48,679 bases of DNA from Nitrospirota bacterium. Its GTDB lineage: Bacteria > JACPQY01. The stretch spans positions 1-48,679 of the forward strand of contig JACPQY010000049.1 in NCBI GenBank assembly GCA_016190245.1, in the 5' to 3' direction. The position numbers and the translations under genes are program-made. How positions within the stretch are numbered: the first letter of the stretch is position 1; every line of letters begins with the position of its first letter. Under the pieces are notes generated by a model. That model ran no database searches and was not told the origin of the DNA. It worked only from the letters and a program-made list of their open reading frames with translations. Positions 35,044-37,437 of the stretch are shown piece by piece.

Positions 35044-36071
35044 GCCCCGCGCAGATCCGGGCCCTCCGCAAGCTGATGTCCCGCGCGGGGCTGGGGTGTC
35101 CCCTGCGGATCACGCCGGAGGAAGGGGGAAAGAATAACAGGGCGTTCGGTGTAGATACGGATAGATGCAAGATATTCATGAAGTGTTACTTCAGATACTC
35201 AGGAGACCGCAGGAACCGGCAACACGCTGAGTTTGCGTGGAGCCGCTTTGCGTGGCGCAGGGGTGTCAGGTGGTTGCCCGAGCCGCTGGCCACGGATCGC
35301 CGCTCCGGCTTCAGCCTCTTCGAATACGTCCCCGGTCGCCGACTGGACGCCGGCGAGGTGACGGCCGGGCACGTGGGTGCGGCATTGCGTTTCTTCGCCG
35401 AGATCAACCGCGGCCGACGAGGCGCCCCGGCGCGGCGCCTGCCGGCGGCCTCGGAATCGTGTTTCAGTGTCGAGGAACATCTGAGGTGCGTCGAGAGAAG
35501 GGTACGACGCTTGGAAGGAATCCGACCAAAAAGCGCCGTTCAACGCAGCGCTCGCCGGTTTGTGAAGGAGGAACTCGTTCCGGAGTGGAATCGGGTTCGG
35601 GAGGGTGCCCGGACTCAGACCGGCACCGCGGCGTTGAGAAGAGCCCTCCCTTTCGCGGATCGCGTCCTTTCACCTTCCGATTTCGGTTTCCACAATGTCA
35701 TCGTCAGGCCGGAGGGCGAGCTGTGTTTCATTGATTTCGAGTACGCGGGATGGGACGATCCCGCAAAGATGATCTGCGATTTGTTCCTGCAACCGGCCGT
35801 GCAGGTGCCCGTGCGCCATCGAACGCGGGTTCTCGATGCGGCGGCGGAATGGGTCGCGGATCCAACGGCGTTGAGGGCGAGGGTTGACCTCCTGGCGCCC
35901 GCCTACAGGATCAAGTGGGTTTGCATCCTGATGAACGAATTCCTAGCCGTGGGCCGACGGCGGCGTGTCTTCGCGGTTCCCGGGGAGGACCTCGATGTTC
36001 GCCAAGCCCGCCAACTCGCGGCGGCGCGCGCGATGCTTCACGGGGCGGAGGCGGCCCCGCACCTATCCTGA
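35019..36071 (+). CDS. Aminoglycoside phosphotransferase/choline-kinase-fold protein
   Basis: 350 residues if GTG 35019 is used; ATG 35076 is an alternative. The N-lobe has a Gly-rich loop EEGGKNNRAFGV and the ATP-binding lysine in IFMKCYF. The C-lobe has LSPSDFGFHNVIV (Brenner motif: catalytic Asp and Asn present, first His replaced) and FIDFEYAGWDDP with the Mg-binding Asp. It would phosphorylate a sugar, choline-like or amino-sugar substrate. Codons around 35128-35210 are AT-richer and rarer (ATA, AGA, GTA, TCA) than the surroundings. The stop codon lies inside the left inverted repeat of the GIY-YIG element, so the last residues are encoded by it. Confidence 0.8.
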   Translation: MGRADRRLSPAQIRALRKLMSRAGLGCPLRITPEEGGKNNRAFGVDTDRCKIFMKCYFRYSGDRRNRQHAEFAWSRFAWRRGVRWLPEPLATDRRSGFSLFEYVPGRRLDAGEVTAGHVGAALRFFAEINRGRRGAPARRLPAASESCFSVEEHLRCVERRVRRLEGIRPKSAVQRSARRFVKEELVPEWNRVREGARTQTGTAALRRALPFADRVLSPSDFGFHNVIVRPEGELCFIDFEYAGWDDPAKMICDLFLQPAVQVPVRHRTRVLDAAAEWVADPTALRARVDLLAPAYRIKWVCILMNEFLAVGRRRRVFAVPGEDLDVRQARQLAAARAMLHGAEAAPHLS

Positions 36072-36354
36072 CAGCGATGTACTACGTATACTTACTGAGG
36101 AGTCTCCACCACGATTGGGGCTACATCGGCTACACTTCGCACTTGAGGACACGCATGCGTCAGCATCGGACGGGGCAGGCGCGGTCGACAAGACCCTATC
36201 TGCCCGTCAAGCCGGTCTACTACGAGGCCTACATTTCCTGGGAAGACGCGAGACATCGCGAGCAGGCACTGAAGTACTTCGGGAAGGCGTACGGGCAGCT
36301 CAAGAGGCGCTTGGCGCACTCCTTGCGTCTTCCCGTGTCAGGATAGGTGCGGGG
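36055..36354 (+). mobile_element. 300-bp element: GIY-YIG gene bounded by perfect 19-bp inverted repeats
   Basis: ccccgcacctatcctgaca (36055-36073) and its exact reverse complement (36336-36354) bound a single 89-codon GIY-YIG nuclease gene. The left repeat carries the stop of the phosphotransferase and the right one begins the GTG of the following SDR. No obvious target duplication is seen. The arrangement fits a minimal mobile element, but mobility is inference; no transposase other than the nuclease is present. Confidence 0.55.
36077..36346 (+). CDS. Single-domain GIY-YIG endonuclease (COG2827-like)
   Basis: 89 residues, the normal size of stand-alone GIY-YIG proteins. MYYVYLLRS stands for the GIY strand and WGYIGYTSHL for YIG. 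The catalytic Arg region LRTRMRQHRTG and the metal-binding Glu in ARHREQALKYF are present, so it should be an active DNA endonuclease fold. ATG begins 4 nt inside the left 19-bp inverted repeat, and the TAG stop lies inside the right one. It interrupts an otherwise continuous glycan operon and is the only non-glycan gene between 26512 and 41088. The biological role of this family is unsettled. Confidence 0.88.
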   Translation: MYYVYLLRSLHHDWGYIGYTSHLRTRMRQHRTGQARSTRPYLPVKPVYYEAYISWEDARHREQALKYFGKAYGQLKRRLAHSLRLPVSG

Positions 36355-37343
36355 TGAAGATCGTCGTCCTTGGCGCGAATTCCTTTTCCGGCCAGGACTT
36401 CGTGGACCTGCTCTTGGACGATCCCTCGAATGAGGTCCTCGGAGTCAGCCGATCGCCGGAGCGCAGCGAAGTCTTCCTCCGCTACAAGCTGCGCCCGGAT
36501 CTGTCGCGCTATCGCTACCACGCCCTCGATTTCAACTCGGACATGGACGCGATCCATTCGCTTCTTGACCGCGAGCGTCCCGAGGCGATCGTGAATTTTG
36601 CCGCGCAAAGCGAGGTGGCGCCGAGCTGGGAACATCCCGAGCATTGGTACCAGACCAACACGGTGGCGCTCGCGCGTCTCGTCAACCACTTGAGACGGCG
36701 GGATTACCTGCGGCGCTATGTGCACATCTCGTCTCCGGAGGTCTACGGCTCGTGCGAGGGACGTGTCGCGGAGGACGCGCCGATGAACCCCAGCACGCCC
36801 TATGCGGCGAGCAAGGCGGCTGCCGACCACCTGCTCTTTGCCTACCACCGCCAGTTCGCATTCCCCCTGCTCGTGGTCCGCGGCACCAATGTCTACGGCG
36901 CGCGGCAGCAGCTCTTCAAGATCATCCCCCGCACGGTGATCGCCCTGAGGCAGGGCAGGAAGATCGAGCTCCACGGGGGGGGGGTCGCCGTCAAGTCCTA
37001 CATTCATGTCCGGGATGTCTCGCGCGGCGAGGCCCTTGTCCTGCGAAACGGCAAGGCCGGTTCAATCTACCACCTCTCGCCACCGGCGGGGATCGCGGTC
37101 CGCGACGTCGTCCGCCGGATCTGCGAGCGCTTGGGACGGCGTTTCGAGGACTCGACCACGGCCGTGGCGGAGCGCCCGGGCCAGGACCGGGCCTACGTGA
37201 TCGACTCGACCCGCGCGCGAACGGAGCTCGGGTGGTTACGCCGGATTGACTTGGACGAGGGGATCGGCGAGGTGGTGGAATGGATCGGCCGCTATTGGAA
37301 CGAAATCGAACGCCTTCCGCATGAGTATGTGCACAAAGCCTAG
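36354..37343 (+). CDS. NDP-sugar 4,6-dehydratase-like extended SDR
   Basis: 329 residues from GTG 36354. GANSFSG at 7-13 is the Rossmann loop, SSPEVYG at 126-132 corresponds to STDEVYG/STSELYG of RmlB and GMD (the Glu is kept, the RmlB Asp is Pro), and YAASK at 150-154 is YxxxK. It probably dehydrates or otherwise converts a GDP- or dTDP-hexose at the start of a deoxysugar branch. A ten-G run (36975-36984) encodes LHGGGVAV mid-gene; a one-base slip would truncate the protein there. The start codon overlaps the right inverted repeat of the GIY-YIG element. Confidence 0.86.
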   Translation: MKIVVLGANSFSGQDFVDLLLDDPSNEVLGVSRSPERSEVFLRYKLRPDLSRYRYHALDFNSDMDAIHSLLDRERPEAIVNFAAQSEVAPSWEHPEHWYQTNTVALARLVNHLRRRDYLRRYVHISSPEVYGSCEGRVAEDAPMNPSTPYAASKAAADHLLFAYHRQFAFPLLVVRGTNVYGARQQLFKIIPRTVIALRQGRKIELHGGGVAVKSYIHVRDVSRGEALVLRNGKAGSIYHLSPPAGIAVRDVVRRICERLGRRFEDSTTAVAERPGQDRAYVIDSTRARTELGWLRRIDLDEGIGEVVEWIGRYWNEIERLPHEYVHKA

Positions 37344-37416
37344 CATTCGGCATTCGGCATTCGGCAGTCGAGAGAGAGCTGCCGTCCGCTCCCGCGATTT
37401 CCGACTGCCGAATGCC
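37343..37416. repeat. 7-bp tandem repeat with a 15-bp inverted repeat in a spacer
   Basis: gcattcg is repeated three times (37343-37363) and followed by a variant gcagtcg. The stretch ggcattcggcagtcg (37356-37370) is exactly complementary to 37402-37416, leaving a 31-nt loop. The spacer runs 37344-37437 between the SDR and a methyltransferase. Confidence 0.8.
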
Positions 37417-37437
37417 GGCTCCCAACTGCCGATTTGA

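Follow-up and report, generated by a model that had tools for sequence, protein, structure and literature searches.

The window analysed here, a 48,679-nucleotide stretch of DNA from a Nitrospirota bacterium, contains on its forward strand a 300-bp unit (positions 36055–36354, both arms included) delimited by a perfect 19-bp terminal inverted repeat, with the left arm CCCCGCACCTATCCTGACA at 36055–36073 and the right arm TGTCAGGATAGGTGCGGGG at 36336–36354. One ORF on the same strand (36077–36346, 89 aa, TAG stop), encoding a GIY-YIG nuclease (PF01541, E=3e-12), occupies the interval between the arms and fills the unit, which also contains a minor internal inverted repeat on that strand (36240–36334; arms 36240–36252 and 36322–36334, 13 nt at 92%). 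The upstream gene, for an APH-type phosphotransferase (kinase; 35076–36071, forward strand), ends within the left arm (TGA at 36069–36071), and the downstream gene, for an SDR/nucleotide-sugar dehydratase (GDP_Man_Dehyd/Epimerase; 36354–37343, forward strand), begins with a GTG rebuilt by the last base of the unit, the final G of the right arm. The 19-nt arms form the longest inverted repeat of the window with arms 50–400 nt apart, followed by repeats of 16 and 12 nt, whereas the longest repeat in 60 Markov shuffles of the window measured only 11–15 nt. The original prediction, made from the sequence, had claimed exact repeats at these positions, a GIY-YIG gene taking up the interval and ends shared with both neighbouring genes, and all three claims are borne out. 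As it also proposed, removal of 36055–36354 would leave ...GCG GTG AAG... in a single frame, fusing the flanking frames and recreating the GTG. The view that the element sets the gene boundary is likewise correct, and this is a signature of the family, start codons being rebuilt elsewhere too.

No clean target duplication was found at the flanks of the window copy (GGCGG to the left and TGAAG to the right), and G001, the sole family relative, has no orthologous locus (best SDR match 33% identical). Since the locus lacks a G001 ortholog and its left flank lacks a duplication, we infer the insertion of this copy from the family. Short gcattcggca-type repeats, direct and inverted and including a 16-bp inverted repeat, were also observed in the window between the SDR and methyltransferase genes (37348–37417).

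The 89-aa protein is a member of the GIY-YIG superfamily, with the domain and its catalytic residues; Tyr5, Tyr16, Arg26, His30 and Glu62 do not vary across the family alignment. PF01541 was the only domain detected, and DDE, DEDD, HUH and serine or tyrosine recombinase domains were absent. The predicted fold (mean pLDDT 77.5) yielded top Foldseek matches to UPF0213 (1zg2) and Slx1 (6seh and 4xlg), all with weak E-values, and 1zg2 was also the closest solved structure by sequence. UPF0213/YhbQ-type proteins and Slx1, the latter a nuclease for branched DNA, are described as host proteins, and we know of none within a repeat-bounded element. Stand-alone GIY-YIG proteins are widespread and, to our knowledge, have no settled role. 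The nuclease had no match in plasmid or phage collections.

Our survey of small GIY-YIG loci revealed perfect flanking inverted repeats, 14 bp or longer, at 24 of 131 loci, as against none of 228 control placements at the same loci. An out-of-sample test was carried out by searching 386 genomes with a profile of the nuclease, and the first five matches from new genomes (L240–L244) all lay between repeats, with one mismatch in L240 and L243. In one clade of the phylogenetic tree (16 tips; support 0.94), terminal inverted repeats flanked 14 of the genes and a 15th (L039) lay between two CCCCGCACCT hairpins; some labels (L240, L242, L243 and L038) were set by hand from the flanks, and the clade count is therefore descriptive.

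The search for further copies with the same ends, suggested by the original prediction, was positive in both the source genome (G000) and other genomes. G000 has five GIY-YIG genes in total, one of which lies in a second copy of 302 bp on contig 33 (L004/L030). The repeat of this copy (ACCCCGCACCTATCCTTGCC, 20 bp) is also perfect, and the copy likewise occupies a stop/start junction between two genes. The arms of this copy and of the window copy have the same first 15 nt, followed by four differing residues (GACA versus TGCC) that pair within each copy; at least the first 14 nt are also common to two elements of G000 lacking a gene. The nuclease proteins of the two copies are only 64–66% identical, which gives no indication that either copy moved recently; the element interiors are 68.6% identical over 258 nt, and the differences between the two genes are concentrated at third codon positions (24/21/43). 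A profile search of genome contigs returned two loci only.

About ten other genomes also carry related elements, of which two lie within 23S rRNA genes. Elements of the same build are present in G001, G052, G021, G095, G362 and a WOR-3 genome, and in an Omnitrophota genome the nuclease gene is flanked by two short hairpins with CCCCGCACCTTC ends. Gene-bearing elements are 272–374 bp long, typically about 300 bp, and the nuclease (77–93 aa in the copies examined) is their only gene. Their repeats are terminal inverted repeats common to the copies, perfect or near-perfect, as in insertion sequences, with the conserved outer motif (A)CCCnGC...GCnGGG(T). In a comparison of 11 elements, the outer CCCCG was near-invariant, and positions 7–19 took several different pairs and remained mostly paired, indicating covarying arms. 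Most gene-bearing copies have a 3-bp target duplication or none, and two of them (L240 and L241) are flanked by TGAA duplications.

The 10-mer CCCCGCACCT was found as closely spaced inverted pairs in G000, G001 and G362, delimiting elements of 23–212 bp that lack the nuclease gene. Four such gene-less elements are present in G000 (111, 112, 209 and 212 bp), five in G001 (107–114 bp) and about 30 in G362 (1.3 Mb), a genome in which the pattern occurs at 69 sites and the reversed control pattern at none. The gene-less ends of G362 (CCCCGCACCT) differ from those of its own gene-bearing copy (CCCCGCCCCC), and a matching gene-bearing copy is found in the sister genome G095. An origin of the gene-less elements by internal deletion of the nuclease element was considered and rejected, as their interiors show no similarity to it; those of G000 and G001 are related neither to the nuclease gene nor to one another. 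Gene-less elements in G000, G001 and G386 (L071–L078 and L081) nevertheless cluster at 107–114 bp, despite these sequence-unrelated interiors.

An identical 4-mer flanks 20 of 34 gene-less elements, in every case TNNA and in 11 cases TGAA; shuffled flanks (2000 replicates) gave a mean of 4.5 and a maximum of 10 identical 4-mers. The flanks of G362 elements were joined and searched for in six genomes of its family, and base-exact empty sites retaining exactly one 4-mer were recovered for six of them (L203, L204, L205, L207, L208 and L212); at L210, L211 and L213, genomes of this family retain the element. As with insertion sequences, a gene-bearing copy was present in one genome and missing from the orthologous position of another in three cases: the thiolase/thiolase locus L030, with an element-free ortholog in G001 (L124); the priA/yicC locus L009, with one in G000 (L126); and the G095 locus L220, with one in G362 (L223). 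A further candidate, the G390 counterpart of L157, was left out of the count because no alignment was obtained for its right flank, although the left flank matches up to TCAA. What looks like a gene-less element with CTCCGCACTTTT ends, bordered by TGAA on either side, is nested close to the right end of the L220 element (contig 35). Empty sites, which had been proposed as a check on mobility, thus exist for three gene-bearing relatives and, to the base, for gene-less ones, and were not obtained for the window copy. Target duplications together with exact empty sites are features of the gene-less relatives; L240 and L241 have the duplication, and the window copy shows neither. The suggestion of a tiny mobile element bearing a nuclease therefore stands on the family copies and their empty sites. 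Overall, mobility of the family is well supported.

In 21 element/gene pairs, the element stops precisely where the following gene starts, and its terminal G (A in L240) forms a GTG or ATG start codon with the TG of the target. The N-termini of the genes restarted in this way resemble those of what we take to be adenylate kinase, GuaA, RadA and ArgD. In six elements (L030, L009, L031, L012, L240 and L241), the nuclease reading frame continues through the right arm, and the target TGA or TAA serves as its stop codon. Other insertions are found in ribosomal RNA: the L014 element and an 81-bp gene-less one on the same contig lie in a single 23S gene, and the 23S gene of another genome holds the L242 element, whose stem measures 21 bp, in its 5' part.

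The GIY-YIG gene might be a homing-endonuclease gene, whose product cleaves a single conserved site into which the gene is then copied by repair, the inverted repeats being part of the recognition site. GIY-YIG enzymes do include homing nucleases, such as I-TevI (Foldseek match 1ln0), and a small single-gene element inserted at rRNA and gene boundaries would suit such a gene. However, the insertion site differs in every element (thiolase, priA/yicC, ABC permease/gldG, 23S at two positions, and after tRNA-Ser) rather than being a single conserved one, the repeats travel with the element, and homing would not be expected to yield gene-less elements with TNNA duplications. We therefore give this explanation very little weight. 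Alternatively, the repeats may act mainly as RNA, with a stem around the nuclease message that is cut by RNase III or masks the downstream ribosome-binding region, and with mobility ancient or incidental. The covarying perfect stems of 12–21 bp, the position between co-transcribed genes and the two copies inside 23S rRNA hairpins, as for known intervening sequences, fit such a role, but it leaves the 4-bp duplications, the exact empty sites and the shared gene-less ends unexplained. As the principal explanation we consider it very improbable, although it is compatible with mobility of the element rather than exclusive of it.

It is also conceivable that the ends and the gene-less elements are moved by an unrelated transposase (RAYT/TIRYT-type HUH or DDE), the GIY-YIG gene being a passenger or a parasite. 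RAYT-related genes of the same genomes are likewise bounded by perfect repeats, in which the outer motif is conserved and the inner part varies (TGGGGTCAAG...), corresponding to the TIRYT class (PMC3733652). However, none of 30 Y1_Tnp genes had CCCCGCACCT-type ends, their own repeats often being of the TGGGGTCAAG type, and G362, the genome richest in gene-less copies, has no Y1_Tnp gene. Furthermore, no pairs of CCCCGCACCT ends wider than the nuclease elements were found among the listed positions in five genomes, and nearly the whole nuclease clade, in about ten genomes, lies within such ends. RAYT as the mobiliser thus found no support (0 of 30 genes), and an unrelated mobiliser in general appears fairly unlikely. 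Seven of the Y1_Tnp (TIRYT) genes (L094, L095, L098, L100, L101, L105 and L116) lie between perfect repeats of 16–44 bp, most of which start with TGGGGTCA and have a variable inner part.

We favour, with a probability of about 70%, an interpretation of the 300-bp unit as a very small mobile element resembling an insertion sequence, the sole gene of which, for an Slx1/UPF0213-like GIY-YIG nuclease, mobilises both itself and gene-less derivatives. The role of the nuclease as mobiliser is suggested by its linkage to the ends, which is not proof of catalysis. Being Slx1/UPF0213-like, the nuclease would presumably act on DNA with branches or hairpins, and might recognise the folded ends and cut at their foot, between TNNA and CCCC and between GGGG and TNNA, making a 4-nt staggered cut at the target. 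Strand joining would be performed by the nuclease or by host repair; we know of no strand joining by GIY-YIG enzymes in prokaryotes. Recognition of a hairpin rather than of an exact sequence would preserve the pairing of the inner arms. Many insertions hit an ATGA or GTGA start, where the duplicated TGA(A) and the terminal G or A rebuild GTG or ATG, so that the downstream gene still has a start. In 23S rRNA, the stem could allow the element to sit on an rRNA hairpin, and trimming by RNase III would be possible, as in known intervening sequences.

These elements constitute a previously unnamed family of tiny mobile elements present in many unrelated bacteria. Analogous HUH-based REP/TIR elements have been described (Di Nocera 2013, PMC3733652). 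Like RAYT/REPtron and TIRYT/TIRtron elements with their REPs (PMC2817692; PMC3733652), those studied here are small, with one nuclease gene, gene-less derivatives and end repeats that combine a fixed outer motif with a variable self-complementary inner part; they differ in having a GIY-YIG enzyme, CCCnGC...GCnGGG ends and a 4-bp duplication, instead of an HUH Y1 enzyme and a GGGGWSAS or GTAG motif. Terminal inverted repeats, short target duplications and gene-less derivatives are shared with DDE insertion sequences and their MITEs, from which the present elements are distinguished by a total length of about 300 bp and a GIY-YIG nuclease with no known transposase domain. With GIY-YIG homing endonucleases (I-TevI, SegA-type), they have in common the catalytic domain family and a single-gene mobile unit, but they have no fixed target, possess their own terminal repeats and produce gene-less copies. 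Insertion at rRNA stem-loops recalls 23S rRNA intervening sequences and the rRNA insertion sequences of CPR bacteria, some of which contain GIY-YIG ORFs that were left unexplained (PMC11270868); that study makes no mention of inverted repeats, and the elements described here also occur between protein genes. The literature searched, which did not extend to subscription papers or preprints, contained no link of GIY-YIG genes with REPs or short terminal repeats. On balance, it seems probable that the family represents a class of prokaryotic DNA transposon absent from that literature, of about 300 bp, with a GIY-YIG nuclease as sole enzyme acting on folded ends; such a transposon would duplicate TNNA and favour start codons as targets while keeping them functional. 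One clade of stand-alone GIY-YIG proteins thereby gains a concrete and testable role, and the rebuilding of start codons explains how elements can lie between genes and convert ATG to GTG without breaking starts. If the nuclease is the mobiliser, these would rank with the smallest DNA elements able to move themselves, with a chemistry outside the known bacterial transposase classes.

Other groups of small GIY-YIG genes were found near repeats or tRNA genes. A separate, strongly supported clade (YYVYILASKRNGT type) includes 20 loci (among them L282, L025, L029, L272, L300, L023, L026, L143 and L024) located between inverted REPs of the CGTC/GTCATTGCGAG type. No dedicated transposase is known for CGTC REPs (PMC3733652), and sister GIY-YIG lineages may be candidates for their missing mobilisers. 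Genes of a third group (L001, L002, L005, L010, L011, L013, L150, L165 and others) adjoin tRNA genes; a tRNA lies within 150 bp of 42 of 133 small GIY-YIG loci, as against 21 of 208 control placements. At the G362 locus L040 (contig 53), part of a tRNA-Gly gene recurs beyond a CCCCGCACCT end, an arrangement resembling the insertion of an element end at this tRNA. At three G000 loci of the third group (L001, L002 and L005), a partial, degenerate copy of the adjoining tRNA, with extra hairpins, comes after the gene.
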